Below are positions 22,528 through 40,558 of a stretch of 64,000 nt of DNA, piece by piece. The notes under the pieces were generated by a model, which saw only the letters and a list, made by a program, of their open reading frames with translations, had not been told where the DNA came from and did no database searches. The stretch comes from Haloterrigena salina JCM 13891. GTDB lineage: Archaea; Halobacteriota; Halobacteria; Halobacteriales; Natrialbaceae. Every line of letters starts with the position of its first letter. Within the stretch, counting starts at the first letter, position 1. The translations under genes were made by a program, and so were the position numbers. The stretch is from positions 22,664 to 86,663 of the forward strand of contig NZ_AOIS01000057.1 in NCBI RefSeq assembly GCF_000337495.1. The letters run 5' to 3'.

Positions 22528-23220
22528 ATGTCGTCCGAGCAGCTCACCGTCCACCTGATCGGGGATTCCACCATAGCCGAGAAAGAGGCCAGCGCTCGCC
22601 CCGAAACGGGCTGGGGAATGCCGTTCGCCGACCGCTTCGATGACTCGGTGACGGTGGAAAACCACGCCCGCAACGGGCGCAGCACCCGTACCTTCCTCGA
22701 GGAGGGCCGTTGGGAGCCGGCCGTTCGCGACCTGACCGAGACCCACTACGTGTTCGTCCAGTTCGGCCACAACGACGAGGTCCCCTCGAAAGAACAGTAC
22801 ACGACCGAAGCGGAGTTCACCGCCAACCTCGAGACGTTCGTCGACGAGACGCGCGAGTGCGGGGCGTCGCCGGTGTTGCTCACGCCCATCGCGCGCCGTC
22901 ACTTCGACGAATCGGGGATCCCGAAAGACACGCATCAGACCTATTCGGAGCTAACCCGGGAGGTCGCTCGCGATCGGGACGTGCCGCTCATCGACGCGGA
23001 CGAACGGAGTCGGTCGCTCCTGCGCGAGCTGGGTCCGGAGGCGTCGAAATCCCTCTACCTTCACCTGTCGCCGGGCGAACACTCCAACTATCCCGACGGC
23101 GCGACCGACGACACGCACTTCAGCGAGTACGGGGCTCGACGGATGGCCGAACTGGTCCTCGACGGGATCGAAGAACTGAACCTCGAGCTGGCGTCCCGCG
23201 TCGTCCCGGCCGATCGGTGA
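22528..23220 (+). CDS. Rhamnogalacturonan acetylesterase-like SGNH hydrolase
   Basis: A 230-residue SGNH esterase. Block I is IGDSTIA near residue 11 with the nucleophilic Ser, block II NHARNGRST near 47, block III FGHNDE near 78, and block V DDTHFSEYGA near 195 with the Asp and His. This combination is typical of CE12 rhamnogalacturonan acetylesterases, which remove acetyl groups from rhamnogalacturonan I or pectin. No signal peptide is seen, so it should act inside the cell on imported oligosaccharides. That is unlike the exported methylesterase and lyases. It is followed tail to tail by an SDR gene. Confidence 0.82.
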   Translation: MSSEQLTVHLIGDSTIAEKEASARPETGWGMPFADRFDDSVTVENHARNGRSTRTFLEEGRWEPAVRDLTETHYVFVQFGHNDEVPSKEQYTTEAEFTANLETFVDETRECGASPVLLTPIARRHFDESGIPKDTHQTYSELTREVARDRDVPLIDADERSRSLLRELGPEASKSLYLHLSPGEHSNYPDGATDDTHFSEYGARRMAELVLDGIEELNLELASRVVPADR

Positions 23221-23296
23221 GCGGTCCGCGCCGAGCGCTCGAGTCGTGCGTTTCTCCGCCGCCTTCCAGCCTCGAGAGCGCAACTCTACGCGAGAG

Positions 23297-24061
23297 CTAC
23301 TCATCGGGACCCCAGGCGTCGGCCATCCAGCCGCCGTCGGCGCGGAGGACCTCCCCGGTGATGTAGTGGTCGCCGCCGGCGAGGAAGCGAACGCAGTTCG
23401 CGACCTCCTCCATCGTTCCGAACCGGCCGAGGGGCGCCCGCCGGTGGACGTCCTCGTCGGTGTAGCCGGCCGCGTCCTGGGTCTGTTCGGTGATGTCCGT
23501 GCGGATGAACCCCGGCGCGAGCGCGTTCACCTGGATGTCGTGGTCCGCCAGCTCGGTCGCGAAGACCCTGGTCAGGTTGTCCACGCCGGCCTTCGAGGCG
23601 CAGTAGGGGGCCCGCTGTGCGAACCCCTGCTGGCCGATCATGCTGCTGATGTTGACGATCTGTCCGCCAGTCTCCTGTTCGACCATCCGCTGGCCCGCGG
23701 CTTGCATTCCGAAGAAGACGCCGGTCAGGTTCACTTCGATCACGTGCCGCCAGTCGTCGGGATTCATCTCGAGGGCGGGAGCGATCACCGTGTTCCCGGC
23801 GTTGTTCACCATGACGTCGAGCGAGCCGAACGCGTCGACGGCGCCGTCGACGAGGGCCTGCACCTCGTCGCGGTCGCTGACGTCCGCTTCGATCCCGACG
23901 GCGGTCCCGCCGTCGGCGACGATCTCCTCGGCGACGGCCTCGGCGCGGGCGCCGTCTCGGGAGTTCACGACGACGTTCGCGCCCTCCGACGCGAAGCGCT
24001 CCGCGAGTGCCTTGCCGATCCCCTTGCTCGAGCCGGTGACGATGACGGTGCTGTCGTCCAT
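23297..24061 (-). CDS. Short-chain dehydrogenase/reductase
   Basis: A 254-residue classical SDR. TGSSKGIGKAL near residue 10 is the cofactor loop, NNAGN near 88 the structural motif, and S-x(n)-YCASK (about 138-157) holds the catalytic Ser, Tyr and Lys. The C-terminal ITGEVLRADGGWM is the usual substrate-loop end. Members act on 3-oxoacyl groups, glucose, or sugar acids such as 2-keto-3-deoxygluconate; the sequence alone does not say which. In this locus a uronate or deoxy-keto-acid reductase or dehydrogenase is plausible. The start is the ATG at 24061. It shares a 204-base divergent upstream region with the first substrate-binding protein gene. Confidence 0.85.
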   Translation of the reverse strand: MDDSTVIVTGSSKGIGKALAERFASEGANVVVNSRDGARAEAVAEEIVADGGTAVGIEADVSDRDEVQALVDGAVDAFGSLDVMVNNAGNTVIAPALEMNPDDWRHVIEVNLTGVFFGMQAAGQRMVEQETGGQIVNISSMIGQQGFAQRAPYCASKAGVDNLTRVFATELADHDIQVNALAPGFIRTDITEQTQDAAGYTDEDVHRRAPLGRFGTMEEVANCVRFLAGGDHYITGEVLRADGGWMADAWGPDE

Positions 24062-24265
24062 ACGATATCGTACTCGTCTCGGAACGTCGGTAAAACGTTT
24101 GTCACACCTTCGCGATCCGACGGGCTCTCGATCGTCGTCCCGGACCGATCCGCTTCGGTAGTGACGCCGCGACAGCGTCCGCGTTGGCGAGTCGCCGCGA
24201 GGCTATTCGCGTCGCGATCGCCTCCGCCACTAAATTATAAATAGAGCTTCGTGTAACTGCTGCTC

Positions 24266-26080
24266 GTGGTGCAAGATAACGATTCACAAGACAGTGGACC
24301 CTGTCGACGAGACGTCCTCAAATACGGCGCCGCGGGCGGCACAGCGCTCGCCGCCGGCTGCCTCGGCGGGAGCAGTAGCACGGATCGGTTCCGCGTCTTC
24401 GACCCGGAGACGAGCGGGACGCTCCCGTCCCAGCGTCACTGCAACCCCTACAACCCGACCCAGCGCGGGACGTGGCATCCGGGGGCGCTCATCCACGACC
24501 GCCCCGTGATATACAGTCCGGCGGAGGACGAGGTCTACCCCCTGATCGCGACCGACTGGGAGATGGCCGACGACACCACGCTGGAGTTCACGTTCAGCGA
24601 CGAGTGGACCTGGCACAACGGCGATCAGCTCGTCGCCGACGACTGGGTCATGCAACTGCAGATGGCGCTTGCAATGCTGGAGTTCCAGGCCGAGGATGGC
24701 GAGCGACCGCACCAGTTCCTCGAGTCCGTCGAGGCGCCCGACGAGTACACAGCGCGGGTTAGCCTCCACGATCCGCTCTCGGAGACGGTCGCGGTCCAGA
24801 ACGCCACCGCCGCCATCTTCGGCGACGAGGCTCGCGGGATCTTCACCAAACACGACGACGACCAGTGGAGCGAGTGGCACAGCCAGCTCATGGAGGCCGA
24901 CGACTCCGAAATGGAGACCCTCGTCGGCGAACTCACGTCGGAGTCGTATCCGATGGTCGAAGACGTAGTGGGGAACGGTCCGTTCCAGGTCGCCGACATC
25001 GGGGACAACGTCATGGTCTTCGAGAAGTACGAGGACCACCCGAACGCCGACAACATCAACTTCAGCGAGTTCTCGATCCACCTCTACGAGAACGACATCC
25101 CCACCCAGCCGTACGTCAACGGCGAGGTCGACGGCGCACACAACGAGTTCCCCGTGAAGGACGACGTCAAGAGCCAACTCCCCGACGGGCACACGCTCGT
25201 CAGGGAAAACCTGTCGACCAACAAGTTGCTTACCTTCAACTGCGGGCACGACGTCTCCTACGACACGCCCTTCTCGAACGCGAACGTGCGCAAGGCGGTC
25301 TGTCACGTCTTCGATCGTCAGCAGGTCGTCTCGGTCCTCGAGGGCGTCAATCAGGTGTTCGACTGGCCGCCGTGTCGCGTCCCGGGAACCACGCTAGAGG
25401 ACGGTTCCCACGACGCCGCGGAGTGGATTCAGGACTTCACCAAGTACGGCCAGAACGACACCGAACGCGCCGCCGAACTCCTCGAGGAGGAGGGCTACAC
25501 GCTCGAGGACGGCGAGTGGTATACGCCCGACGGCGAACGCTTCGAGATCGACATCATGAACGGCTCCAAGCAGAAGCACATCGGCGTTCTCAAGGACAAT
25601 CTGAACGAGTTCGGCATCGCGACGAACCAGGAGCAGGTCGACGACGCGACGTTCGACGAACGTCGCCACGCCGGCGAGTACGACATGATGCCCGATACGT
25701 CGTCCGCCAACGGCGTCCGGGCGATGTGGGCGCTGGATCTGGTGCCAGGCTGGCTCCAGTCGATCACGCACTTCGATCCCGAAGCGGAAATCCCGATGCC
25801 CGTCGGCGACCCCGACGGCTCGGAGGGGACGAAGACGATCAACGTCGAGGAGCACATTCGGGAGTGGCAGATCACCGACGACGACCAGTACCACAGGGAA
25901 CTGCTGTGGTGGTGGAACCAGACGGTTCCGCAGATGGAGGCGATGTTCCAGCCCGATGCCGGCGCCTACAACGGCGACAACTGGACGATCGACGGCCCGG
26001 ACGGCATCGTCCACGGCGTCGACGACGCGCTCTACCTCGTCACCAAGACGGACGAGGCGACGATGGAGTACACGGGCTGA
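24266..26080 (+). CDS. ABC substrate-binding lipoprotein, family 5 (copy 1 of 3)
   Basis: A 604-residue solute-binding protein of the peptide/nickel/oligosaccharide type. The start is GTG at 24266 (or the adjacent GTG at 24269). The N terminus CRRDVLKYGAAGG ends in a lipobox AAGCLGG, so it is a Tat-exported lipoprotein on the outer face of the membrane. The family fold shows WTWHNGDQL (about 110) and ANVRKAVCHVFDRQQV (about 340). It is the first of three tandem copies of identical length, upstream of one permease pair and one ATPase. Related systems import oligopeptides or oligosaccharides; pectin or arabinan oligomers fit the locus. TATA-like AAATTATAAATA lies at 24232-24243. Confidence 0.9.
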   Translation: MVQDNDSQDSGPCRRDVLKYGAAGGTALAAGCLGGSSSTDRFRVFDPETSGTLPSQRHCNPYNPTQRGTWHPGALIHDRPVIYSPAEDEVYPLIATDWEMADDTTLEFTFSDEWTWHNGDQLVADDWVMQLQMALAMLEFQAEDGERPHQFLESVEAPDEYTARVSLHDPLSETVAVQNATAAIFGDEARGIFTKHDDDQWSEWHSQLMEADDSEMETLVGELTSESYPMVEDVVGNGPFQVADIGDNVMVFEKYEDHPNADNINFSEFSIHLYENDIPTQPYVNGEVDGAHNEFPVKDDVKSQLPDGHTLVRENLSTNKLLTFNCGHDVSYDTPFSNANVRKAVCHVFDRQQVVSVLEGVNQVFDWPPCRVPGTTLEDGSHDAAEWIQDFTKYGQNDTERAAELLEEEGYTLEDGEWYTPDGERFEIDIMNGSKQKHIGVLKDNLNEFGIATNQEQVDDATFDERRHAGEYDMMPDTSSANGVRAMWALDLVPGWLQSITHFDPEAEIPMPVGDPDGSEGTKTINVEEHIREWQITDDDQYHRELLWWWNQTVPQMEAMFQPDAGAYNGDNWTIDGPDGIVHGVDDALYLVTKTDEATMEYTG

Positions 26081-26328
26081 CTTCGGCGTTCGCCGACTCG
26101 AGTGACATCCCGCCGGACCGACACAGTCGGTATATCGGTCGCAGTTTCGAGTCGACACACCCCTCCGATTCGAACCCGCTCGACTCCGCGCACGCCAGCA
26201 GTTCGGTCCTCTCTTCGGACGAGTACGGGTACTACCGGATAGTATCGGACGACCGGCTGCTGAACCGGCCATCTATCACTGAAAATAATCATTGAATATA
26301 TGTGTCCTGACTGCTATGGCTATCGAGT

Positions 26329-28143
26329 ATGCTGGAAGGTAACAGCTGGTGGAGTAGCGATCAGAATCGACGAGACGTGCTCAAGTACAGCGCTGCGGGT
26401 GGAACGGCCCTCGTTGCCGGCTGTCTCGGCGGGAGCAGTAGCACGGATCGGTTCCGCGTCTTCGACCCGCAGTCGAGCGGGACGCTGCCGTCGGAGCGTC
26501 ACTGCAACCCCTTCAACCCGTCCCAACGCGGGACGTGGCATCCGGGGGCGCTCATCTTCGACCGCCCCGCTATCCACAGTCCGGCGAAAGACGAGGTCTA
26601 TCCCCTCGTTGCAACCGACTGGGAGATGGCCGACGACACCACGCTGGAGTTCACGTTCAGCGAGGATTGGACTTGGCACAACGGCGATCAACTCATCGCC
26701 GACGACTGGGTCATGCAACTACAGATGGCGCTTGCAATCCTCGAGTACCAGGCCGAGGACGGGGAGCGACCGCACCAGTTCATCGAGTCCGCCGAGGCGC
26801 CCGACGAGCGGACGGCGCGGATCGACCTTCACGACCCGCTCTCGGGGACGGTCGCGGTTCAGAACGCTATCGCCGATTTCGTCGGCGACGAGAGCCGCGG
26901 CATCTTCACCAAACACGACGACGACCAGTGGAGCGAATGGCACCAGCGGCTCCAGGAGGCCGACGACTCCGAGATGGAGACCCTCCTCGAGGAACTCACG
27001 TCGGAGTCGTACCCCCTGCTCGAGGACGCGGTCGGGAACGGCCCGTTCCAGGTCGCCGATATCGGTGACAACGTCATGGTCTTCGAGAAGTACGAGGACC
27101 ATCCGAACGCCGACAACATCAACTTCAGCGAGTACTCGATGCACCTCTACGAGAACAACAACCCGACCCAGCCGTACGCCAACGACGAGGTCGACGCCGC
27201 ACACACGCAGTTCCCCGTCGAGGACGACGTCAAGAGCCAACTCCCCGAGGGACACACGCTCATCAAGGAGAGCTTCTCGACGAACAAGCTGTTCTCGTTC
27301 AACTGCGGTCACGACGTTTCTTACGACACGCCCCTCTCGAGTGCGAACGTACGCAAAGCGGTCTGTCACGTCTTCGATCGCGACCAGGTCAAACAGGTCC
27401 TCGAGGGCGTCAATCGGATGTTCGACTGGCCGTCGTGTCGCGTCCCCGGCAACGTGTTGGACAGCGGTTCTCACGAGGCCGCGGAGTGGATCCAGGACTT
27501 CACCGAGTACGGCCAGAACGACACCGAACGCGCCGCCGAACTCCTCGAACAGGAGGGATTCGAGCGCGACGGCGGCGAGTGGTACACGCCGGACGGTGAC
27601 CGGTTCGAGATCGACGTCCTGGGGGGAACCAAACGGAAGGAGTTCGGCGTTCTCAAGGACAATCTAAACGAGTTCGGCATCGCGACGAACCAGGAGGAGG
27701 TCGACGACGCGACGCTCTCCGAGCGCCGGCAGAACGGCGAGTTCGACATCGTGCCCGACGGCTCCTCGGCCAACGGCGTCCGGGCGATGTGGGCGCTGGA
27801 TCTGGTGCCGGGCTGGCTCCAGCAGATCACGCACTTCGATCCCGAAGCGGAGATTCCGATGCCCGTCGGCGACCCCGAGGGCTCGAGCGGGACGAAGACG
27901 ATCAACGTCGAGGAGCACATCCGGGAGTGGCAGATCACCGACGACGATCAGTACCACAAGGAGCTGATGTGGTGGTGGAACCAGACGGTTCCGCAGATGG
28001 AAACGATGTATCAACCCGACGCCGGCGCCTACAACGCCGACAACTGGGAACTCGACGCGCCCGACGACATCATCGACGGGACCGAGGACGCGCTGTACCT
28101 CATCCCGAAGATGAACGAGGCGACGATGGAGTACACGGGCTGA
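26329..28143 (+). CDS. ABC substrate-binding lipoprotein, family 5 (copy 2 of 3)
   Basis: A 604-residue paralogue of the protein at 24266, alignable without gaps over nearly all its length, starting at ATG 26329 (MLEGNSWWSSDQNRRDVLKY). The twin arginines and lipobox VAGCLGG are intact. Differences are scattered (for example IDFVGDESRGIF against AAIFGDEARGIF, and FDWPSCRVPGN against FDWPPCRVPGT), as expected for paralogues drifting in ligand preference, not recent copies. A TATA-like GAATATATGTG at 26294-26304 gives it its own leaderless promoter, so it may be expressed separately from copy 1. Upstream 26081-26328 holds no other gene. Confidence 0.9.
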   Translation: MLEGNSWWSSDQNRRDVLKYSAAGGTALVAGCLGGSSSTDRFRVFDPQSSGTLPSERHCNPFNPSQRGTWHPGALIFDRPAIHSPAKDEVYPLVATDWEMADDTTLEFTFSEDWTWHNGDQLIADDWVMQLQMALAILEYQAEDGERPHQFIESAEAPDERTARIDLHDPLSGTVAVQNAIADFVGDESRGIFTKHDDDQWSEWHQRLQEADDSEMETLLEELTSESYPLLEDAVGNGPFQVADIGDNVMVFEKYEDHPNADNINFSEYSMHLYENNNPTQPYANDEVDAAHTQFPVEDDVKSQLPEGHTLIKESFSTNKLFSFNCGHDVSYDTPLSSANVRKAVCHVFDRDQVKQVLEGVNRMFDWPSCRVPGNVLDSGSHEAAEWIQDFTEYGQNDTERAAELLEQEGFERDGGEWYTPDGDRFEIDVLGGTKRKEFGVLKDNLNEFGIATNQEEVDDATLSERRQNGEFDIVPDGSSANGVRAMWALDLVPGWLQQITHFDPEAEIPMPVGDPEGSSGTKTINVEEHIREWQITDDDQYHKELMWWWNQTVPQMETMYQPDAGAYNADNWELDAPDDIIDGTEDALYLIPKMNEATMEYTG

Positions 28144-28337
28144 TCGGGGTCCGTCGCCCGAACCTTCGTCGCCCCATCATGATCGACGGCTCGGTTTCAG
28201 GGGTGACTCCGTCCCCGTCGTCGCGAATTCGTTCGAAGGACGCCGGACGGCAGGTCGGCCCCGGTTCCGAACGTGTCCGGATCGCTGACGGACCGCAGCG
28301 ATCGAGCGCGTGATAAACTGGCTCGTCAGCCGCTGGA

Positions 28338-28363
28338 AACCATCTAATGGTTAATTATATATA
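28338..28363 (+). promoter_or_regulatory. Inverted repeat abutting a TATA element
   Basis: AACCAT-CTA-ATGGTT (28338-28352) is a perfect inverted repeat with 6-base arms. It runs directly into TAATTATATATAT at about 28352-28363, 23-34 bases before the ATG at 28386. In archaea this position covers the BRE, where a bound protein could block or recruit the basal factors. Confidence 0.45.
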
Positions 28364-28385
28364 TCGCCTTCTATGACTAGGGAGT

Positions 28386-30200
28386 ATGCCAGAGGGTAAC
28401 AACTGGCGGAACAGCGGTCCTAGCCGACGAGATGTCCTGAAATACAGCGCTGTGGGGGGTACAGCTCTCGTTGCTGGATGTCTGGGTGGGAGCGGTAGCA
28501 CAGATCGATTTCGAGTGTTCGACGCGGAGACGAGCGGGACGCTGCCATCGCAGCGTCACTGCAACCCCTACAAGCCGACCCAGCGCGGGACGTGGCATCC
28601 GGGGGCGCTCATCTTCGATCGGCCCGTGATGTACAGCCCGGCGGAGGACGCAGTCTATCCGCTGATCGCGACCGACTGGGAGATGGCCGACGACACCACG
28701 CTGGAGATGACGTTCAGCGAGGATTGGACCTGGCACAACGGCGACGACCTCACCGCCGAGGACTGGGTCATGCAGCTGCAGATGTCCCTCGCGATTCTCG
28801 AGTACCAGGCCGAGGACGGGGAGCGTCCGCACCAGTTCCTCGAGTCCGTCGAGGCACCCGACGAGTACACAGCGCGGATCAATCTCCACGATCCGCTCTC
28901 GGAGACAGTCGCAGTCCAGAACGCCACCGCAGGCCTCGTCGGCGACGAGGCTCGCGGGATCTTCACCAACTCCTCCGACGACCAGTGGAGCGAGTGGCAC
29001 AGCCAAGTCATGGAGGCCGACGACTCCGAAATGGATTCCATCCTCGAGGAACTCACGACGGAGTCGTACCCGCTGCTCGAGGACGCGAACGGGAACGGTC
29101 CGTTCCAGGTCGCCGATATCGGGGACAACGCCATGGTCTTCGAGAAGTACGAGGACCACCCGAACGCCGACAACATCAACTTCAGCGAGTACTCGTTCCA
29201 CCTCTACGAGAACAACAACCCGACGCAGCCCTACGCCAACGGCGAGGTCGACGCCGCGCACTCCCAGTTCCCCGTCGAGGACGACGTCAAGAGCCAACTT
29301 CCCGAGGGACACACGCTTATCAAGGAGAGCTTCTCGACGAACAAGCTGTTCACGTTCAACTGCGGCTACGACGTCTCCTACGACACGCCGTTCTCGAATG
29401 CGAACGTGCGCAAGGCGGTCTGTCACGTCTTCGACCGACAGCAGGTCACCCAGGTCCTCGAGGGCGTCAACCGAATGTTCGACTGGGCGCCGTGTCGCGT
29501 CCCCGGCAACGTGCTGGACAGCGGTTCCCACGACGCCGCGGACTGGGTCCAGGACTTCACCAAGTACGGCCAGAACGACACCGAACGCGCCGCCGAACTC
29601 CTCGAGGAGGAGGGCTACACGCTCGAGGATGGACAGTGGTACACGCCGGACGGCGAGGAGTTCGAGATCAATATCATGAACGGCTCCGAGCGGAAGGACT
29701 TCGGCGTTCTCAAGGACAATCTGAACGAGTTCGGTATCAAGACGAACCAGGAGCAGGTCGACGACGCGACGTTCGACGAACGCCGACAGAACGGCGAGTA
29801 CGACATGATGCCCGACGGTTCGTCCGCGAACGGGATCCGCGCGCTGTGGGCGCTGGACCTCGTGCCGAACTGGGTCCAGTCGATCTCTCACTTCAACCCC
29901 GAGGCGGAAATCCCGATGCCCGTCGGCGACCCCGACGGCTCCGAGGGGACGAAGACGATCAACGTCGAGGAGCACATCCGGGAGTGGCAGGTCACCGACG
30001 ACGACCAGTACCACAAGGAACTGATGTGGTGGTGGAACCAAACGGTTCCGCAGATGGAAGTGATGTTCCAGCCTGACGCCGGTGCTTACAACGCCGACAA
30101 CTGGGAACTCGACGCGCCCGACGGCATCATCGACGGGACCGAGGACGCGCTGTACCTCATCCCCAAGACGGACGAGGCGAGCATGGAGTACATCGGCTAA
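28386..30200 (+). CDS. ABC substrate-binding lipoprotein, family 5 (copy 3 of 3)
   Basis: The third 604-residue paralogue, start ATG 28386 (MPEGNNWRNSGPSRRDVLKY). Its leader is closest to copy 2 (both begin M-x-EGNxW), whereas much of the mature part, such as YTLEDGQWYTPDGEEF and EQVDDATFDERRQNGEYDMMPD, is closer to copy 1. This mixture suggests stepwise duplication or gene conversion. The Tat motif and lipobox VAGCLGG are intact. Only about 80 bases separate its stop from the small membrane protein gene, and the permease genes follow, so this copy is the one adjacent to the translocation unit. Confidence 0.9.
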   Translation: MPEGNNWRNSGPSRRDVLKYSAVGGTALVAGCLGGSGSTDRFRVFDAETSGTLPSQRHCNPYKPTQRGTWHPGALIFDRPVMYSPAEDAVYPLIATDWEMADDTTLEMTFSEDWTWHNGDDLTAEDWVMQLQMSLAILEYQAEDGERPHQFLESVEAPDEYTARINLHDPLSETVAVQNATAGLVGDEARGIFTNSSDDQWSEWHSQVMEADDSEMDSILEELTTESYPLLEDANGNGPFQVADIGDNAMVFEKYEDHPNADNINFSEYSFHLYENNNPTQPYANGEVDAAHSQFPVEDDVKSQLPEGHTLIKESFSTNKLFTFNCGYDVSYDTPFSNANVRKAVCHVFDRQQVTQVLEGVNRMFDWAPCRVPGNVLDSGSHDAADWVQDFTKYGQNDTERAAELLEEEGYTLEDGQWYTPDGEEFEINIMNGSERKDFGVLKDNLNEFGIKTNQEQVDDATFDERRQNGEYDMMPDGSSANGIRALWALDLVPNWVQSISHFNPEAEIPMPVGDPDGSEGTKTINVEEHIREWQVTDDDQYHKELMWWWNQTVPQMEVMFQPDAGAYNADNWELDAPDGIIDGTEDALYLIPKTDEASMEYIG

Positions 30201-30280
30201 CGCCGTGTCGACGCCGACCGCGACGACGACAATAGTTCCCGCAGACCAAGATTTAAGAGCGTCTCGGCGAACTAGCCCAT

Positions 30281-30475
30281 ATGGGATTCCTTCGGTCCGT
30301 TTCGCAAGTCGTTCTCGGTGTCAATTTCCTGTTCTTGGTACTGCTCGGGTTCTCGTTTCTCTTCCTCGAGCCAGGGACGGGTCCGTACGTCGTCGCAGTA
30401 CTCACGCTCATTCCCGTCGTCCTCTCGCTCGTCGCGAGCGTCGCGGTGATCTATACCGGCTGGGATCCGTTCTAG
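30281..30475 (+). CDS. Small two-helix membrane protein next to importer 1
   Basis: A 64-residue protein with two predicted membrane helices (about 6-29 and 37-59) and a short polar connector LEPGTG; it ends YTGWDPF. A TATA-like AGATTTAAGAG at about 30249-30259, some 22-32 bases before the ATG, supports real expression. It is homologous to the 70-residue protein at 45008-45220: from EPG to GW both have exactly 32 residues with no gap and share the EPG[ST], V, L and YxGWxPF positions. Each lies beside a Dpp/Opp importer. I know of no named family. A small accessory subunit of the transporter is the simplest idea, but this is inference. Confidence 0.8.
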   Translation: MGFLRSVSQVVLGVNFLFLVLLGFSFLFLEPGTGPYVVAVLTLIPVVLSLVASVAVIYTGWDPF

Positions 30476-30661
30476 TCAGCGGTCGTGACCGGCGTTCGAT
30501 CCGGCTGCCACTGGGAGTCCGATAGCTGTCGGGACGGTGGAAAATAGTCCAATCGAACAGACAATCGTTTTTTCGTACTGAGTTCCTGCCGATTCCTATC
30601 AAATTCCGATGACGATGGGAAACCTTGATAATGAATGATTCTGAATAAATACGCGTCCACT

Positions 30662-31654
30662 ATGGTAACGATAGACTGGCGTATCAGGAGGCTCGGGCAA
30701 GCGGTGTTCACGGTGTGGGCCGTGATTACGCTCTCATTCGCATTGGTACGGATGTTGCCCGGGAACATGATGGGTGCAATGATTACCAGACTGGCCCGAC
30801 AGGGTATCAACCCGGCACGGGCCCGTGAACTCGTCGAATACCGGATGACTATCGATCCCGATGCGCCGCTCTTGCCCGCGTACCTTTCCTACGTTTCGGA
30901 AACGCTGCAGGGGAATCTGGGACAGTCCGTCTTCTACAGTCGGCCAGTCGTGGACGTCCTCGCGGAGGCCCTTCCGTGGACGCTGTTCGTCCTGAGCTGG
31001 GCGGTGTTCATCAGCTTCTTTATCGGCATTTCCATCGGTGCGCTGATGGCGTACTGGGAGGGCGGAAAGCTGGACATCGGGCTGACGTCGTACGCCGTCC
31101 TGATGGGGTCGATCCCGTTCTACGTGCTCGCGATCCTCCTGTTGATCTTCCTGTCGTACCGACTGGGCTGGTTCCCCACCGGCGGTCGCCAGCCGATCGC
31201 TACCGATCCGGGATTCAATCTGACGTACATCAGCGGTATCGTCACCCACGCTGCACTACCGGTCCTCTCCATGCTCGTCGCCTCCGGCGTCGCCTCGCTG
31301 GGGATGCGCGGGAACAGTATTCGCGTCCTCGGTGAGGACTACCTCCGCGTCGCCCGTCTCCGCGGTCTCTCGGACATCACGATTTCCACCCAGTACGTCG
31401 CCCGCAACGCCGTCCTGCCGATGTACACGACGCTGCTGATCAGCATCGGCGAGATGTTCGGCGGCTCGATCGTGTTGGAGCAGGTGTTCCAGTACCGCGG
31501 GGTCGGCTGGTACATGCTGTCCGCCACCCACCAGCGCGACTACCCGCTCATGATGGGCGGATTCATGGTCATCACGGTGGCGATGGTTATCGCCCTGCTG
31601 CTGGCCGACCTGACCTACGGATACGTCGACCCGCGAGCACGGAGGTCACAATGA
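30662..31654 (+). CDS. ABC importer permease, DppB/OppB-like (importer 1)
   Basis: A 330-residue inner-membrane permease with about six helices. The N-terminal RRLGQAVFTVWAVITLSF and LVRMLPGN are typical of DppB-type subunits, and the ATPase-contact (EAA) loop reads VARLRGLSDITISTQYVARNAVLP near residue 230 (in two pieces). The start is ATG 30662; an in-frame ATG at 30635 would add nine polar residues. Its stop overlaps the start of the next gene (ATGA at 31651-31654), so the two permeases are translationally coupled. It forms the channel with the DppC-like partner for the ligand delivered by the three substrate-binding proteins. Confidence 0.9.
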   Translation: MVTIDWRIRRLGQAVFTVWAVITLSFALVRMLPGNMMGAMITRLARQGINPARARELVEYRMTIDPDAPLLPAYLSYVSETLQGNLGQSVFYSRPVVDVLAEALPWTLFVLSWAVFISFFIGISIGALMAYWEGGKLDIGLTSYAVLMGSIPFYVLAILLLIFLSYRLGWFPTGGRQPIATDPGFNLTYISGIVTHAALPVLSMLVASGVASLGMRGNSIRVLGEDYLRVARLRGLSDITISTQYVARNAVLPMYTTLLISIGEMFGGSIVLEQVFQYRGVGWYMLSATHQRDYPLMMGGFMVITVAMVIALLLADLTYGYVDPRARRSQ

Positions 31655-32769
31655 CGCGACATTCAGAGACACCAACGGACGACGACGAACGGATGGATTT
31701 CGAGGACGCGATCGTCAGCGACTCCGAGGCGAGCGCCGACGAGCGGATCGAGACCGACGGCGGCGTCGGCACGCCCTTCGAGGTCGTCTCCGAGTACGAG
31801 GAGACGCGCCGCGACCGCTACCGCAAGCTATACGACGCGTACGTCCACGCGCCGATCTCCATCATCTGGCGCGATTGGCGCGCTCGAATCGGCTTCACGA
31901 TCGTCGCGATCTACCTGTTGATGGGGACCGTCGGACCGCTATTCGTCGAGCCGACGAGCGTGACCGAAGGTCCAGCGCTCGCCGCGCCGTTCGAGACCAT
32001 GGAGTACCCCCTCGGGACGGACAACCAGGGACGCGACCTGCTCTCCCAGACGGTCCACTCGACGTCGACGATTCTCAAGATGGTCCTCTCGGGTGCGGTG
32101 TTCACCGTCGGCATCGGGACGATCATCGGATCCATCGCCGGCTACAAGGGCGGCATGACCGACACGGTCCTGAGTTCGATCACCGACGTGTTCATCAACA
32201 TCCCCGGCTTCCCGCTCGTGATGGTGCTGGGACTCATGTTCGACGACCAAATTCTCGGCAACCCGTTCGCGATCGGCGTGTTGCTGAGCATCGCATCGTG
32301 GGGCGGACTCGCCCGGGCGATCAGATCGCAGATGCTCACGCTCCGGGAGGAGTCGTTCGTCGAGGCCTCGCAGGCGATGGGAATCGGGACGTCGACGATC
32401 GTCTTCAAGGAGATCGTTCCGCACCTGATGCCGTTCGTGGTGATCAACCTCACGAACGCCGGTCGGAAGGTCATCTTCGAAGCGGTCGCCCTGTACTACC
32501 TCGGGATCCTCCCCTTCCAGGACCTGAACTGGGGAAGCATCCTGAACCAGGCCTACGGGGCGAACGCGCACGCCCGTCCCGACGCGATCCACTGGTTCCT
32601 GGTCCCCATGTTCGCGATCGTGTTCATCTCTGTGGGACTGACCCTGCTCGGGCAGTCCTTAGACCGTGTGTTCAACCCCCGCGTCCGGGCCCGACACGAG
32701 AAGACGACCGCCGACGTCGAGGGCGACGGCGACGGCGAAACGCAGACGCAAGATGCGATGGGTGTCTAA
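31651..32769 (+). CDS. ABC importer permease, DppC/OppC-like (importer 1)
   Basis: A 372-residue permease. An unusual, highly acidic cytoplasmic N-terminal tail of about 70 residues precedes the first helix (IGFTIVAIYLLMGTVGP). HPLGTDxxGRDLL-type sequence appears as YPLGTDNQGRDLL, a DppC hallmark, and the EAA loop is in SFVEASQAMGIGTSTIVFKEIVPHLMP in pieces near 245-270. It overlaps DppB by four bases upstream, and its stop is followed by a single base before the ATG of the fused ATPase, so the operon is compact. The partner in importer 2 has a shorter tail (330 residues total). Confidence 0.9.
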   Translation: MTRHSETPTDDDERMDFEDAIVSDSEASADERIETDGGVGTPFEVVSEYEETRRDRYRKLYDAYVHAPISIIWRDWRARIGFTIVAIYLLMGTVGPLFVEPTSVTEGPALAAPFETMEYPLGTDNQGRDLLSQTVHSTSTILKMVLSGAVFTVGIGTIIGSIAGYKGGMTDTVLSSITDVFINIPGFPLVMVLGLMFDDQILGNPFAIGVLLSIASWGGLARAIRSQMLTLREESFVEASQAMGIGTSTIVFKEIVPHLMPFVVINLTNAGRKVIFEAVALYYLGILPFQDLNWGSILNQAYGANAHARPDAIHWFLVPMFAIVFISVGLTLLGQSLDRVFNPRVRARHEKTTADVEGDGDGETQTQDAMGV

Positions 32770-32770
32770 C

Positions 32771-34972
32771 ATGACTGTTTCCGAAACCGACTACCAACCC
32801 GAACCGAAACAAGGCGATTCGATCCTCGAGATCCGCAACGCGTCCGTCACGTTCGACATGGACCGCGGCGAATCGCGCGTTCTCGACGACGTCGACCTGG
32901 ATATCGAGCGAAACGAGATCCTCGGCGTCGTCGGCGAGAGCGGCAGCGGCAAATCGATGCTCGCGTCGGCGCTGCTCGACGCGATCGTCGACCCGGGCGT
33001 CCTCTACGGGGACATCACGTACCACCCCCCGGACGGCAGCCCGATCGACATCCTCGATCTCGACAAGCAGGGGCTCAAGGAACTCCGCTGGGAGGAGATT
33101 TCGATGGTGTTCCAGGGGGCGATGAGTTCGTTCAACCCCGTCCGCAAGATCCGAACCCACTTCGTCGAGACGCTCGACGCCCACGACTACGATATCGACG
33201 AGGGGATAGAACGGACGGAGGGCATTCTCGAGGACCTGTATCTGGACCCCGATCGCGTCCTCGATTCCTACCCGCACGAGCTGTCGGGCGGGATGAAACA
33301 GCGTGCGCTCATCGCGCTCTCGCTGGTGCTCGAGCCGGAGGTGCTGGTGATGGACGAGCCGACGGCCGCGCTGGACCTGCTGATGCAGCGGTCGATCATC
33401 TCGCTGATCCAGGAGATCAAGGAGGAGTACGATCTGACGATCGTCTTCATCACCCACGACCTGCCGCTGGTCGCGGACATCGCCGATCGGATCGGCGTCC
33501 TCTACGCCTTCGAGTTCGTCGAACTCGGACCGACCGGCGAGATCCTCGAGAACGCCGCCCATCCCTACACGCGACTCCTGTTGAAATCGACGCCGAACCT
33601 CGAGGCACCGATCGAGACGATGCAGCCGGTCGAGGGGTCGGCACCGGACCCGGTGAACGTTCCGTCGGGCTGTTCGTTCCACAGGCGGTGTCCGCTGGCC
33701 ACCCAGGAGTGTCGGGACGTCGATCCCGGCCCGTACGACGCCGGCGGGAGCCACGTCTCCCACTGTCACCACTGGGAGTCGGCCCGCGAGGAGATCCCGA
33801 TGTCGTACGACCTCAAGGAGATCGACACCGGATCCGAGTCGGCGAAGATCGGCAAGGGAGACACGGCCTCGCGGACCGCGTCGGCCGAGCCGGTCGTCTC
33901 GCTCGACGACGTCGAGGTCCATTTCGAGAAGGAGAAGGGCTTCCTCGACATGTTCGACGAGCCCGACGTCGTCGAGGCCGTCGACGGCGTCTCGATGGAT
34001 ATCTACGAGAGGGACGTGGTCGTCCTCGTCGGCGAGTCCGGCTGCGGCAAGACCACGCTGGGGAAGACGGCGGTCGGGCTCCAGGAGCCGACTGGCGGCA
34101 GCGTCAACTACCGCGGTCACGACATCTGGGACGTCAAGGCGGGCGACGGCGACGGCTCGATCTCGTGGGACGAAATCCGCCGATCGCTCCAGATCGTCCA
34201 CCAGGACCCTGGGAGCGCCCTGAACCCTCACCGCCGCGTCAAGGCGAGCCTCGAGGCCCCGCTCAAGCGCTGGAACGACGACCTCGACGGGAACGACCGC
34301 AAGCAGCGCATCCTGAGCCTGCTCGAGCACGTCGGGATGTCGCCGCCGGAGGACTACATCGATCGCTACCCTCACCAGCTGTCGGGCGGCGAACAACAGC
34401 GCGTCGCGCTGATCCGTGCGATGCTGATGAACCCCGACGTGATCATGGCCGACGAGCCGGTCAGCGCGCTGGACGTCTCCCTGCGCGTCGAGATGATGGA
34501 CCTCATGATCCAGCTTCAGGACACGTTCAACACATCGTACCTGTTCGTCTCCCACGACCTCTCGAACGCGCGGTACATCGCCGAGAAGACCGGCGGTCGG
34601 ATCGGCGTCGTCTACCTCGGCCGGCTGGTCGAGATCGGCCCGCCGGACGAGATCATCCACAACCCCCAGCACCCCTACACGAAGGCGCTGTGCTGGGCGA
34701 CGCCGGAACTCGGCGCCGACAACGACGACGACGAGTCGCCGATCCGCGAGATCGACATTCCCGACCCGACGAACCCGCCGAGCGGCTGTCGCTACCACAC
34801 GCGCTGTGCCAAGGCCCGCGAGGTCTGTCGGCAACAGGACCCGGGGGCGTTCGACATTCCCGACGACGACTTACACGAGGCCGCGTGTTTCCGCGTCCTG
34901 GACGACCACGAGTACTGGGACAGCGAGTCGATCACCGAGGAGGACGAACTGGTCGCACAGGGCGACGACTGA
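32771..34972 (+). CDS. Fused double ATPase, DppD-DppF type (importer 1)
   Basis: A 733-residue protein joining the two ATPases that are normally separate. Domain 1 (about 18-350): Walker A GESGSGKSM near 55, signature HELSGGMKQR near 170, Walker B VLVMDEPTAAL, and C-terminal oligopeptide-transporter motif PSGCSFHRRCPLA. A Gly/Ser/Asp linker region of about 40 residues follows. Domain 2 (about 375-733): Walker A GESGCGKTT near 420, LSGGEQQRVAL, MADEPVSALD, and PSGCRYHTRCAKA near the end. All catalytic elements look intact in both halves. The ATG at 32771 follows the dppC stop directly; longer frames upstream are within dppC. In importer 2 the same two proteins are separate genes. Confidence 0.92.
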   Translation: MTVSETDYQPEPKQGDSILEIRNASVTFDMDRGESRVLDDVDLDIERNEILGVVGESGSGKSMLASALLDAIVDPGVLYGDITYHPPDGSPIDILDLDKQGLKELRWEEISMVFQGAMSSFNPVRKIRTHFVETLDAHDYDIDEGIERTEGILEDLYLDPDRVLDSYPHELSGGMKQRALIALSLVLEPEVLVMDEPTAALDLLMQRSIISLIQEIKEEYDLTIVFITHDLPLVADIADRIGVLYAFEFVELGPTGEILENAAHPYTRLLLKSTPNLEAPIETMQPVEGSAPDPVNVPSGCSFHRRCPLATQECRDVDPGPYDAGGSHVSHCHHWESAREEIPMSYDLKEIDTGSESAKIGKGDTASRTASAEPVVSLDDVEVHFEKEKGFLDMFDEPDVVEAVDGVSMDIYERDVVVLVGESGCGKTTLGKTAVGLQEPTGGSVNYRGHDIWDVKAGDGDGSISWDEIRRSLQIVHQDPGSALNPHRRVKASLEAPLKRWNDDLDGNDRKQRILSLLEHVGMSPPEDYIDRYPHQLSGGEQQRVALIRAMLMNPDVIMADEPVSALDVSLRVEMMDLMIQLQDTFNTSYLFVSHDLSNARYIAEKTGGRIGVVYLGRLVEIGPPDEIIHNPQHPYTKALCWATPELGADNDDDESPIREIDIPDPTNPPSGCRYHTRCAKAREVCRQQDPGAFDIPDDDLHEAACFRVLDDHEYWDSESITEEDELVAQGDD

Positions 34973-35093
34973 CCGCTGTCGGACGGTCTCGGCTCGAGAA
35001 TAGCCGTCCACCGTTCGATCGACCTTTTCGTTCTGCGCCGGTTTTCGCGCCGATTCACTGACCGAGAGGAGCCGCTCCTCGCCTCGTCTCGCC

Positions 35094-36263
35094 TCAGATC
35101 GACGGCCCGACGCGCGTGATCGCAAAGGACGTTACGCCGTGGCGCTCCGAACGCGTCGGCTCGCCGTCGAGGACCCCTCGCAGCGTCGCCAGCAGTTCGC
35201 CGGGCGTCGTTTCGCCGGCGAACGCGTCGAGATCGTCGCGCAGCGCCGCATACGTGTCGCGATCGCCGGTGACCGTGAGCACCGGAACGATCGGGTGGCC
35301 GGTGGGGATCCCGTCGGCGGTGACGTGGATCACGACCTGCGCGCCGGCGGCGGCCAGCGCCGTGGCCGCCTCGTCGAACGCCGACGGCGCGTCGACCAGT
35401 GCGACGCCGGTCTCGTGGGCGGCCCGCTCTCCGTACTCGAGGACGTCCCGAACGGGTCGGTCGCCCCAGAGCCGTCTCACCCGCTCCGGCGTCGCGTCCG
35501 CGGCGCGCTTTCGCGTCGCGGTGACAGCCGCCGGCGAGTCGTACGCGCGGTCGGTTACGCCGTCGAAGCGCTCCCGCGCGTCGGCCGTGGCGACCCGCTC
35601 CCGAACGGCGCCGACATGGGCGTGGATCCGTTCGTTGCCCGCGACCAGGGCGCGGCCCCCGGCGTCGACGATCCGCTCGACGACGCGGCCGACGAGCGGG
35701 TCCGCCGACTCCAGCGACGAGGGCCGACAGTCGCTGCTGACGACGCCGATCGTCGCCGCCTCGAGACCGACCCGCTCGCGCTCCGTCTCGGCCTGCGCCC
35801 TGAGGGCCGTCGCGCGACCGATCCCCGCCTCGCGACACGCGTCGGTACCGCCCTCGCGCTGGATCGCGATCTCCTCGACCGGAACCCCCCGGTCGGCGAT
35901 CGATCCGGCGAGGCGGTCGCTCTGGACCGTCTCGCAGCCGAGTCCGACGGCGAGCGCGCCGGCGACGTTCGGATTCGCCGCCACACCGACCAGCGTCCGC
36001 TCGGTCCGCTCGCTGTCGTCGCCCAGTTGCCCGCAGCCGTGGTCGTGGGGCGCGCTCACGGCGCCGGGAACCGCGTCGGCGATCCGGTCGGCGACCGTGT
36101 GCGAGCAGATGACCGACGGTACCACCAGTACGCGGTTCCGGACGCCGACGCCGTCGCGGTCCCGATCGTAGACCTCGAATCCGGTTCCCGCGCCGGGTTC
36201 GGTCGCCGCGGCGTTCCCGGTCGCCGAGTCCGTCTCCGCGTCGGCGTCGCGCTCTCGAGTCAC
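35094..36263 (-). CDS. UxaA/GarD-type large-subunit paralogue, apparently degenerate
   Basis: A 389-residue protein related to the large-subunit part of altronate/galactarate dehydratases. The GTG at 36263 is chosen because it overlaps the previous gene's TGA as GTGA, matching the coupled layout of the operon. It keeps the first part (GVGVRNRVLVVPSV and HDHGCGQLGDD) and the last part (GHPIVPVLTVTG). Compared with the neighbour at 36577 it has lost the central motifs: CGGSDATSG reads SSDCRPSSL, SETPEFIGAEH reads AGNERIHAHVG, and GNQEGGLTTIEEKSLG is absent. A regulatory or structural partner, or a subunit with altered chemistry, is possible. Enzymatic function on its own is unlikely. Confidence 0.75.
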   Translation of the reverse strand: MTRERDADAETDSATGNAAATEPGAGTGFEVYDRDRDGVGVRNRVLVVPSVICSHTVADRIADAVPGAVSAPHDHGCGQLGDDSERTERTLVGVAANPNVAGALAVGLGCETVQSDRLAGSIADRGVPVEEIAIQREGGTDACREAGIGRATALRAQAETERERVGLEAATIGVVSSDCRPSSLESADPLVGRVVERIVDAGGRALVAGNERIHAHVGAVRERVATADARERFDGVTDRAYDSPAAVTATRKRAADATPERVRRLWGDRPVRDVLEYGERAAHETGVALVDAPSAFDEAATALAAAGAQVVIHVTADGIPTGHPIVPVLTVTGDRDTYAALRDDLDAFAGETTPGELLATLRGVLDGEPTRSERHGVTSFAITRVGPSI

Positions 36264-36580
36264 GCCGATCCCTCCGCCAGATCGCCGCGGCCGCGGTTGC
36301 TCTCGCAGTTGTGGGTGTGCACCCACTCGCCCGGCTCGATCCGCTCGGTGGCGCTACCGATGACCTCTCCGTACTTGGCGATCGGCTCGCCGGCGTCGAT
36401 CGCCGTCACGGCGAGCTTGTGGCCGAACGCGATCGGTTCGGCGACCTCGAGGACCGTTCGATCGTCCGGCAAGTCCTCGGTTTCGATAGTGCGGCCGGCC
36501 TCGAGGTCGGTGATTGCCGTCGCAACGGTGTCGCCGTCGGCCAGCAGCACCGCCGCGTCGTCGAGCACGACGCCCTTCAC
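36260..36580 (-). CDS. UxaA-type small subunit, SAF domain
   Basis: A 106-residue SAF-domain protein equivalent to the N-terminal domain of altronate dehydratase. Motifs are LAEPIxFGHKLA (as VAEPIAFGHKLAV), KYGEVIG and GEWVHTHNCE, the last containing the conserved histidines. Start and stop overlap both neighbours by four bases, so the three genes form one translationally coupled operon: large subunit, small subunit, degenerate paralogue. The separation of SAF and catalytic domains into two genes is common in archaea and some bacteria. It should assemble with the 395-residue protein to form an iron-dependent sugar-acid dehydratase. Confidence 0.88.
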   Translation of the reverse strand: MKGVVLDDAAVLLADGDTVATAITDLEAGRTIETEDLPDDRTVLEVAEPIAFGHKLAVTAIDAGEPIAKYGEVIGSATERIEPGEWVHTHNCESNRGRGDLAEGSA

Positions 36581-37764
36581 GTCGGATCACCCAGCGACGC
36601 CAGCTCCCGCGGCTGGAGTTCGTTGATCGCGAACTCGGCCATCCCGCGACGTTCGGCCTCGGTTCGGGTGCCGTCGGCGACCGACAGCAGCGTCTCGTAG
36701 ACGCGCTCGCCGACGGCCTCGACCGACTCGCCGTCCAGGACCGTGCTGGCGTCGACGTCCATGTTGGTCGCCATTCGATCCGACGTCTGGGGGTTGCCGG
36801 TGACCTTGATCACCGGCGCGATCGGGTTCCCGGTCGTGCTGCCGCGGCCGGTGGTGAAGGCGATCACCTGCGCGCCGCCGGCGACCTTGCCGACGACGCT
36901 CTCGACGTCGTAGCCGGGCGTGTCCATCACGACCAGTCCGCCGCCGACTGGAAGCGGATCGGCGTAGTCGACGACGTCGCGGATCGGCGTCGTGCCGCCC
37001 TTCGCGATTGCGCCCAGGCTCTTCTCCTCGATGGTCGTCAGCCCGCCCTCCTGGTTGCCCGGCGTCGGCTGGGTCCCCCTGAGGTCGACGCCCATCAGGT
37101 CGGCGACGGACTCGCGCCTGTCGACGCACTCCAGGAGTCGCTCGCGGACCGATTCGTCGACGCAGCGCTCCGCGAGGACGTGCTCGGCGCCGATGAACTC
37201 CGGCGTCTCGCTGAAGCAGCTCGTTCCGCCGGCCTCGACGAGCCGGTCGCAGGCGTTTCCCACCGCGGGGTTGGCCGCGATCCCGCTGGTGGCGTCGCTG
37301 CCGCCGCACTCGACGCCGAAGACGAGTTCGCTCGCGTCCGCGCTCTCGAGGCGAGCGCGCGCTGCCTCCTCGAGGAGCGCGTCGACGGCCTCGCGGCCGC
37401 GGTCGATGGCCGCGCGCGTGCCGCCGGCGTCGCGAATCGACAGCGTCTCGACCGGCGTGTCGCCCGCCGCGATTTCGTCGGCGATCGCCGATGCGCCGGC
37501 GGCCTCGGTTCCCAGTTCGACCACGAGCGCGCCGCCGACGTTCGGGTTGCGGCCGATTCCGGCGAGCACTCGTTCGGTGCGTCTGCGAGCCGGCTCCGGC
37601 TGCTCGGTTCCCATCTGGTGGGGCGTCGCCGTCACGCGCGGTCCGCCGTCGGCCGCGATCCGATCGGCGACCGCACTCGCCGCGACCGACGTCGGCAGGA
37701 CGGCGACCCGGTTTCGGACGCCGATCCGTCCGTCGGCACGTCTGTACCCGGAAAACGTTTCCAT
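36577..37764 (-). CDS. UxaA/GarD-type sugar-acid dehydratase, large subunit
   Basis: A 395-residue catalytic subunit of the altronate/galactarate dehydratase family. The family markers are all here: GRIGVRNRVAVLP, GVECGGSDATSG near 170, SETPEFIGAEH near 193, GNQEGGLTTIEEKS near 238, VMDTPG, and FTTGRGSTTGNPIAPVIK in pieces near 305. Substrate could be D-altronate (giving 2-keto-3-deoxygluconate) or galactarate (giving 5-keto-4-deoxyglucarate). Divergent from it is a second KdgD-like gene, which argues for galactarate. An inverted repeat at 37784-37804 covers its promoter. First gene of a three-gene coupled operon. Confidence 0.88.
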   Translation of the reverse strand: METFSGYRRADGRIGVRNRVAVLPTSVAASAVADRIAADGGPRVTATPHQMGTEQPEPARRRTERVLAGIGRNPNVGGALVVELGTEAAGASAIADEIAAGDTPVETLSIRDAGGTRAAIDRGREAVDALLEEAARARLESADASELVFGVECGGSDATSGIAANPAVGNACDRLVEAGGTSCFSETPEFIGAEHVLAERCVDESVRERLLECVDRRESVADLMGVDLRGTQPTPGNQEGGLTTIEEKSLGAIAKGGTTPIRDVVDYADPLPVGGGLVVMDTPGYDVESVVGKVAGGAQVIAFTTGRGSTTGNPIAPVIKVTGNPQTSDRMATNMDVDASTVLDGESVEAVGERVYETLLSVADGTRTEAERRGMAEFAINELQPRELASLGDPT

Positions 37765-37783
37765 ACGCGTTCTTCCAGCGGAA

Positions 37784-37804
37784 TCGGCATTATTCTTCTG
37801 CCGA
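37784..37804 (-). promoter_or_regulatory. Inverted repeat over the UxaA operon promoter
   Basis: TCGGCA-N9-TGCCGA has perfect 6-base arms at 37784-37789 and 37799-37804. The AT-rich spacer reads GAAGAATAA on minus and lies about 26-34 bases before the ATG at 37764, where a TATA element is expected. A repressor bound here would block TBP. Confidence 0.45.
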
Positions 37805-37983
37805 GCGTCCGACGGCCCGTCCCGGCGCTCGCTCCGAGAGGCTGACGGCTATCGTCCGTCGCCGAGCAATTGGCGATTTCGAGGGTGCTGTGAAGGCTCG
37901 TTCCGCCGTCCTCGACCGAAACCAGTCGCGAAAGATCGGCTTTAGGCGATGGATTTATATTATTCGCAATACATCGAAATGCT

Positions 37984-38922
37984 ATGTCATTGCCAGCCGA
38001 GCAGGTACGGAGCCGTCTCCGTGGCGTTGCTGTCGGTCTGTTGACGCCGTTTGACGACGACCTCGAGATCGAACACGAGAAAATCGCGGAAAACGCACAG
38101 GAGCTGTACGACGAGGGGATCCGGACGTTTCTGGCGACCGCGAACATCAGCGAGTACCACTCGCTGTCGGCGAGTGAGCGCGTCGACGTCGCCGAGACAA
38201 GCGTCGAGGCGCTCCCGTCGGACGCCTGCGTCCTCGCAGGCGTCGGCGGCAGCACGCACAACGCCATGGAACTGATTGAGGCGTACGATCGCATCGACGT
38301 CGACGCGATGATGATCATGCCGCCGGACCACACATATCTCCACGAACAGGGGCTGCTGGAGTACTATCGCGACCTTGCGTCCGTGACGGAGTCGCCGCTC
38401 GTCCCCTACGTCCGCGGCTTCGATCCGTCCGTCGACTATCTCACCAGCCTCACCCGCGTCGACGGTGTCGTCGGGATCAAGTACGCGCTGAAGGATCCGG
38501 TCAAGCTCGGCGCAGCCGTCGAGGCCGGCGCCGACGACGTCGTCTGGGTCGACGGTCTCGCGGAACCCTACGCCGTCTCGTACTGGGCGGAGGGCGCCGA
38601 GGGCTTCTCCGCGGGCGTCAGCAACTTCCGCCCAGAGATCGGACTCGAACTGTTCGACGCGCTCTCCGAGGGCGACTGGGAGCGCGCCTGCGAACTCCGG
38701 AACATCTGTCTGCCCTTCCAGAACTTCCGGGACGAAACCGGGCAGGACAACGCGATCGCCGGCGCGATCAGCGTCTCGGCGGTCAAGAAAGGGCTCGAAC
38801 TCGCCGGCCTCCACGGCGGTAACGTCCGCGAACCGATCCGCACGCTCCAGCCTGAAGAGGAGCGGAAGGCCGAACGGCTCTACAACCAACTCGAGGACGA
38901 CATCGAATCCCTCATCAACTAA
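37984..38922 (+). CDS. KdgD-like 5-keto-4-deoxyglucarate dehydratase, second copy
   Basis: A 312-residue DapA-superfamily protein. The Schiff-base lysine is K166 (VGIKYALKD) and the tyrosine is Y142 in VPYVRG. The NISEYHSLS loop replaces the GNTGEYYSL loop of the copy at 6279; otherwise the two align throughout, including VWVDGLAEPYAVS against VWVNGIAERYALS-like sequence and the C-terminal VKKGLELAG. The subgroup is the same, so the reaction is likely decarboxylating dehydration of 5-keto-4-deoxyglucarate, or aldol cleavage of a related keto-acid. The first residues of the loop differ, which may change substrate. A TATA-like ATTTATATTA at 37951-37960 supports the ATG at 37984. It diverges from the UxaA-type operon. 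Confidence 0.75.
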   Translation: MSLPAEQVRSRLRGVAVGLLTPFDDDLEIEHEKIAENAQELYDEGIRTFLATANISEYHSLSASERVDVAETSVEALPSDACVLAGVGGSTHNAMELIEAYDRIDVDAMMIMPPDHTYLHEQGLLEYYRDLASVTESPLVPYVRGFDPSVDYLTSLTRVDGVVGIKYALKDPVKLGAAVEAGADDVVWVDGLAEPYAVSYWAEGAEGFSAGVSNFRPEIGLELFDALSEGDWERACELRNICLPFQNFRDETGQDNAIAGAISVSAVKKGLELAGLHGGNVREPIRTLQPEEERKAERLYNQLEDDIESLIN

Positions 38923-39804
38923 CTCGAGATCCCCGAAGCGAACAGCGGTTGGTAGTACCGCATTTCCAAGCGCCTCCATTTCGCAGCTAACAGAGTCGTT
39001 CACCGGACGAGTATGAGTCGCTCCCACGGCATTCGGGATCGATCATCAGTAGTTAGTTCCGTAGAAGGGAACAAATTCTGTCGCGATTGACACGCCCGGT
39101 TCCATCCGGACTCACACGATGATGGCCGCACGACCCACCGGTCGCCGCCGAAGAGAGCCACTATTCCTCGTCTCCGGCGACGTATCCGCAGAACTGGCCG
39201 GTAGCTGCCGTCTCGAGCCGACGAGTTCGATGCGTCGATGGTCACCACTTCTGATTCGAGACAGCGTCTTCGGCAACTTGAATTCGCGTATCGGGAATCC
39301 GCAGTATTAGGCCCTCTTCGTGCAGTTACCGCGCGTATCGCCGTCGAGAAATTCCACACGAGAGCTCGATTCGACCTCGATTCGGGTCGTTTGCCACCAA
39401 CTCGCATATTCCCACCTCCACTTTTGACAACAGTACGAGTGTAATTGTTCCCGGTGTGAGAACCCATCACGACCCCGGTTCGTAACGACTCTCCCCGGTA
39501 ACTCGTCGAGAACTACCTGACGACGTCGAATCGAGCGAAGAAACCGATGCGAACGGGCCCGGAACGGTCCACTGGGGCTGATGGCGTTTCGACCGACGCG
39601 ATGAACGGTTGGAACTCGCGGAACTCGAACCCGTTATCGCCGACCACCGGTGCGTTGATGCTCATCCGACGGCGGTCTCGAGGCCGCTCCGTACTCGTTT
39701 CGTCTACTTGGCTGGTTCGACGGGCTCTCGGGAGGGGTGTGTCGAGCGCCGTTATGGGGGCGATCGCACGGATTTATCACCGAACCGGTCAACGGTGACC
39801 GTGC
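38923..39804. other. Intergenic region of about 880 bases, no intact gene
   Basis: Open frames on both strands (for example around 39119-39310, 39238-39444 and 39547-39798) show no motif I recognise. A degenerate form of the TTCCGTA/TTCTGT promoter motif is at 39057-39080 with a 19-base period. The last part holds the promoter of the CBM9-like gene: GGATTTATCACC at 39769-39780. Decayed genes may underlie the region, but I cannot name one. Confidence 0.4.
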
Positions 39805-40476: not shown

Positions 40477-40521
40477 CGGCGTCGATGGCTCGAGCGCACC
40501 GCTGCGGTTGTGAACGACCGA

Positions 40522-40535: not shown

Positions 40536-40558
40536 CTGCACCGCCGTAGTCGCACGCA

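Follow-up and report, generated by a model that had tools for sequence, protein, structure and literature searches.

The window, a stretch of 64,000 nucleotides from Haloterrigena salina JCM 13891, holds two ATP-binding cassette importers about 15 kb apart inside a pectin/arabinan cluster, each with a gene for a very small membrane protein beside it (Table 1). An earlier note on this DNA had proposed that the two small proteins (microproteins 1 and 2) are homologues and that they represent a conserved accessory part of archaeal Dpp/Opp transporters. Pfam assigns the neighbours of both to SBP_bac_5, BPD_transp_1 and ABC_tran with oligo_HPY, confirming that they are Dpp/Opp importers, and the two systems are clearly diverged, with permeases that are only 45–47% identical between them. 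The small genes also occupy different positions, microprotein 1 lying between the binding proteins and the permeases and microprotein 2 behind the ATPases; the same gene layout of importers and microproteins is found in H. turkmenica.

Table 1. Features of the two importer loci and their surroundings, in window coordinates.
Feature	Position	Strand	Remarks
Plant-polysaccharide island	22528..44984		Around and between both importers; syntenic with H. turkmenica pHTUR02
Importer 1, family-5 substrate-binding protein a	24266..26080	+	Lipobox AAGC
Importer 1, family-5 substrate-binding protein b	26329..28143	+	Lipobox VAGC
Importer 1, family-5 substrate-binding protein c	28386..30200	+	Lipobox VAGC; 80 bp separate its end from microprotein 1
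Microprotein 1, 64 aa	30281..30475	+	Two-TM hairpin; EPGTGPY loop, tail YTGWDPF
Importer 1, DppB-like permease	30635..31654	+	
Importer 1, DppC-like permease	31651..32769	+	
Importer 1, fused double ATPase (DppD-DppF)	32666..34972	+	Two oligo_HPY domains
Open frame, 746 codons	42750..44990	−	Antisense to arabinofuranosidase gene; no Pfam match
Microprotein 2, 70 aa	45008..45220	−	Two-TM hairpin; EPGSEGR loop, tail YFGWKPFGFLDET
Importer 2, DppF-like ATPase	45283..46407	−	Directly upstream of microprotein 2
Importer 2, DppD-like ATPase	46400..47452	−	
Importer 2, DppC-like permease	47455..48447	−	
Importer 2, DppB-like permease	48461..49474	−	47% identity to PermB1; synteny with H. turkmenica
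Importer 2, family-5 substrate-binding protein	49557..51329	−	Lipobox MAGC; synteny with H. turkmenica

Several details of the locus are recorded here for completeness. The three tandem binding proteins of importer 1 (24266–30200, + strand) are 80–83% identical, and relatives carry one to three copies, indicating continuing duplication and loss of this gene. Judging by H. turkmenica HTUR_RS21785, the true start of the fused ATPase is probably at about 32771. The surrounding island encodes a rhamnogalacturonan acetylesterase, UxaA genes, a DHDPS-family protein and an arabinofuranosidase; the long frame antisense to the arabinofuranosidase gene is most likely an artefact of high-GC composition.

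Homology and selection of the two microproteins

Microproteins 1 and 2 share the ungapped 32-residue block running from EPG to GW, together with the ends YTGWDPF and YFGWKPF, as originally described. Their local alignment score of 78 exceeds every one of 2000 shuffles that preserved composition and segments (mean 33, maximum 72), and in searches of the whole 4.84-Mb genome the sole significant non-self match of each was the other (E = 0.0016 and 0.0023). These two results rule out a chance likeness between hydrophobic peptides. The same genome encodes a third member of the family (G000:C3:144244-144408, locus L003), which is cut off by the end of its contig and stands some 120 bp ahead of a further family-5 binding protein with a lipobox.

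Between orthologues of microproteins 1 and 2, dN/dS is approximately 0.07–0.30 (two misaligned pairs with differing start choice were left out), so that both genes are under purifying selection at the protein level; the earlier note had named a lack of such conservation as grounds for abandoning its proposal. Both counterparts in H. turkmenica (HTUR_RS21770 and HTUR_RS21835) are labelled "hypothetical protein", the label that annotators give to family members.

Extent of the family

Searches with the two microproteins found 69 places in 125 genomes of the same taxonomic family, and a further 80 were taken from profile searches, 73 of them outside that seed family. The resulting set of 147 homologues was picked on sequence alone, after removal of one frame artefact (L124) and one unrelated 151-aa membrane protein (L131). 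With profile A1, members were detected in 132 of 391 Halobacteria genomes, about a third. The broader profile A2 gave one weak match among the remaining genomes of the phylum sample, and matches among 72,556 plasmids were confined to those of haloarchaea. The family is thus all but missing from those remaining genomes and from plasmids of non-haloarchaeal origin, and the description "archaeal" narrows to haloarchaeal within the phylum sample.

The suggestion that no described family covers these proteins is borne out by comparison of 57 diverse members with Pfam-A and NCBIfam, in which weak matches were scattered over one or two members only. Profiles for CbiN/NikN, KdpF, CydX, AcrZ, CcmD and DUF2160 gave no match among the 57, and DUF6113, a weak match of microprotein 2, was rejected at 16.5 bits against a cut-off of 27 (one of the 57 members matched). 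Nor are the proteins permease subunits of the BPD_transp_1 type: they lack a match to that domain and have two helices, compared with about six transmembrane helices and an EAA loop. A search of the open-access literature, with subscription papers outside its scope, found no description of a haloarchaeal importer microprotein.

Predicted fold and conserved residues

Two membrane helices had been proposed for each microprotein, in agreement with two hydrophobic segments and with AlphaFold2 models, built with family alignments, that give the same hairpin for both proteins at a pLDDT of 93 (predicted helices 3–26/34–59 in microprotein 1 and 3–28/34–59 in microprotein 2). Lysine or arginine is present in 87% of N-tails, 24% of loops and 67% of C-tails across the family, a positive-inside bias that places both termini inside and the short E-P-G-[S/T] turn outside. 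A Foldseek search of the PDB with the hairpin returned no match under E = 0.001, as is expected of a bare hairpin.

Members are 55–90 residues long. Conservation in the family alignment is highest in the turn (G32 86%, P31 75%, E30 67%), which is followed by an aromatic residue; the conserved core further comprises R/K at the inner end of helix 1, one polar residue within each helix and a W-[D/E]-P-F tail. In a second flavour of the family the tail is basic, Y-W-Y-C-T-K-R-A. Adjoining one basic-tail microprotein, in Natronorubrum aibiense (L249, 8369–8827), is a divergent gene for a universal stress protein; UspA domains have been associated with haloarchaeal transporters (PMC3102087).

Linkage to Dpp/Opp-class importers

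The earlier note had asked how often homologues lie near family-5 importers, and held that homologues scattered away from importers would contradict it. With neighbourhoods scored solely by similarity to the importer proteins of the window, an importer gene lies within 8 kb of 144 of the 147 homologues, compared with at most about 10% expected for a random position (16 genomes, among the matches listed). The median distance is 102 bp, 117 of the 147 are within 500 bp, and importer genes are present at 79 of the 80 profile-found places. Among the 57 members under 62% identity, only L128 and L208 are without an importer gene within 8 kb, and in both an oligo_HPY ATPase is present in the same cluster, at 12 and 19 kb, respectively; the third exception, L129, is the syntenic sister of L128. 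One further locus (L182), scored on a binding protein alone, has an importer ATPase at 11–12 kb. In an independent marker search in 16 genomes, an oligo_HPY domain among those listed (150 of 272) lay no more than 10 kb from at least 51 of the 60 microproteins. All open reading frames of the loci were searched for one in which the microprotein is fused with an importer subunit, and none was found.

Relative to the importer, the microprotein gene is found in about ten different arrangements of position and orientation. It may be internal to the operon or follow the ATPases, precede the binding protein or diverge from it, or converge with the ATPases. By parsimony, at least 21 layout changes are required on the permease tree, and 22 when the microprotein's own tree is used (both from FastTree, hence approximate). 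Linkage that persists through so many changes, divergent and convergent arrangements included, is not explained by passive operon drag.

Microprotein distances also correlate with those of PermB, PermC and the binding protein (r = 0.51–0.55 in 39 non-redundant loci, reached in 0 of 2000 permutations). For pairs of paralogues from the same genome, r is 0.64 against PermB and 0.55 against PermC; as this co-divergence is seen among paralogues of one genome, species history is not its cause. Since the binding protein co-diverges too, co-divergence does not single out the permease as the partner.

Importers that carry the microprotein

Linkage to importers therefore stands, but the wording "Dpp/Opp transporters" in general was too broad, since the microprotein accompanies a subset, mainly of sugar and oligosaccharide importers. 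Among the importers listed in 16 genomes, about 45% carry it and about 55% are without it, and some genomes, G029 among them, combine many importers with a complete lack of microproteins. With so many importers of the same class doing without it, the basic transport cycle does not depend on the microprotein.

Microprotein-bearing importers are found preferentially in plant-polysaccharide or sugar clusters. Their neighbours include GH115, GH88 and altronate dehydratase genes, and arabinofuranosidases, GH67/GH127, GFO/IDH/MocA oxidoreductases and TrmB sugar regulators are abundant among the flanking genes; in Halopiger the neighbours include GH115, GH88, mannonate dehydratase, rhamnogalacturonan lyase and arabinofuranosidases. 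In a contrast based on whole-genome search positions, GFO/IDH/MocA genes are near 11 of 51 importers with the microprotein and 3 of 63 without it (p = 0.009, among the matches listed). Yip1-domain membrane proteins and HEAT-repeat proteins also recur in the surroundings, each making up 5–6 of the 118 flanking genes at the 57 diverse loci. Importers of the Dpp/Opp class are often annotated as peptide importers. A paper cited in PMC10267330 describes Sulfolobus sugar uptake through two ABC families, and PMC10267330 itself states that, for one step in the import of polysaccharide breakdown products, nothing is known about haloarchaea.

Discussion

Taken together, the tight linkage, the many rearrangements that it has outlasted and the co-divergence with importer subunits suggest, with a probability that we put at roughly 0.6, that this haloarchaeal hairpin family serves as an accessory membrane subunit in some Dpp/Opp-class importers, chiefly those for plant-polysaccharide oligosaccharides, and that it touches the importer physically. 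In this picture both termini face the cytoplasm, the short E-P-G-[S/T] turn is exposed outside, and the hairpin could pack against the DppB/DppC-like permease pair, which would be stabilized by it or tuned in assembly, activity or gating. The outer turn would then sit near the docking place of the lipid-anchored binding protein; the tail, W-[D/E/K]-P-F or basic, would be found towards the cytoplasmic side.

A bolder version, which we put forward only tentatively, makes the hairpin a sixth, obligatory subunit, one for nearly every haloarchaeal Dpp/Opp-class sugar importer, that coevolves with each permease pair and lets a peptide-importer design cope with bulky sugars or with a membrane at high salt. 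If true, a widespread sixth component without protein-family coverage would redraw the haloarchaeal Dpp/Opp systems, and the family would serve as a sequence marker separating sugar from peptide importers, which annotation pipelines confuse. It is well suited to testing, with short genes, many paralogues per genome and culturable hosts (Haloterrigena turkmenica and Halopiger xanaduensis).

The hairpin might instead belong to the sugar-use regulon in its own right, acting on the sugar, on binding-protein biogenesis or on the membrane with no contact to the permease. Its clusters often contain glycosidases and TrmB/IclR regulators, and some copies, divergent or convergent, are transcribed separately from the importer. 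At four places, moreover, its neighbours are arabinofuranosidase or GH78-like genes and the nearest importer ATPase is more than 8 kb away (at 11–20 kb in the three checked). However, the typical distance to an importer gene of about 100 bp, the tracking of permease distances by microprotein distances, and the absence of a tie to any single enzyme family make this explanation unlikely.

Less probable again is a regulatory or quality-control peptide, comparable to SgrT, MgrB or AcrZ, that modulates the activity or turnover of the importer according to sugar state and is not a standing subunit. The tiny two-helix form would suit such a role, as would the presence with only about 45% of importers (among the matches listed, 16 genomes) and the divergent and convergent layouts, which require promoters of their own; the commonest layouts, however, are on the same strand beside importer genes, suggesting co-production with the importer. 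That the hairpin anchors substrate-binding proteins to the membrane is very improbable: the microprotein 1 gene does directly follow the binding-protein genes of importer 1, and co-divergence extends to the binding protein, but all four binding proteins of the window already have a lipobox cysteine, and the family is equally common behind ATPases. Finally, although the genes are short, hydrophobic and annotated only as hypothetical, the dN/dS values, the one loop motif conserved through 147 homologues and the fixed importer neighbourhood leave a negligible chance that they are spurious hydrophobic frames or a hitch-hiking toxin or mobile element.

An accessory importer subunit of this kind would have parallels in other systems. 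CbiN and NikN are two-TM accessory subunits of ECF-type cobalt and nickel ABC importers; like them, the haloarchaeal protein is small, has two membrane helices and a loop on the outside, and is encoded together with an ABC importer, although it has no sequence match to them in the Pfam scan and the importer class differs. GlpU (DUF2160), whose gene stands beside the rhizobial glycerol ABC importer GlpSTPQV, is likewise an uncharacterized membrane protein of small size whose gene accompanies an ABC importer of the sugar type; it differs in that the family has no DUF2160 match and that GlpSTPQV is CUT1-like and bacterial. No relevant paper on GlpU was found in the open-access literature.

The Dpp/Opp type ranks with the most thoroughly studied ABC importers, and published descriptions give it five subunits. 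The haloarchaeal systems share the gene complement of E. coli-type Dpp/Opp importers (family 5, type I), with SBP_bac_5, two BPD_transp_1 permeases and two oligo_HPY ATPases as neighbours of the microprotein. According to the excerpted text of PMC12136057, the solved E. coli DppABCDF works with its five subunits and no small hairpin subunit is reported; a subset of the haloarchaeal importers, in contrast, is adjoined by a small hairpin gene. Among small membrane proteins more generally, a survey (PMC10903887) names the accessory subunits KdpF, CydX, AcrZ and CcmD and notes that most of the conserved archaeal ones are still hypothetical. KdpF, CydX, AcrZ and CcmD are mostly single-helix and bacterial and have no Pfam or NCBIfam sequence match to the haloarchaeal family, yet each, like the hairpin, is a tiny membrane protein associated, by gene position or by binding, with a larger complex in the membrane; for CcmD this is an ABC complex.
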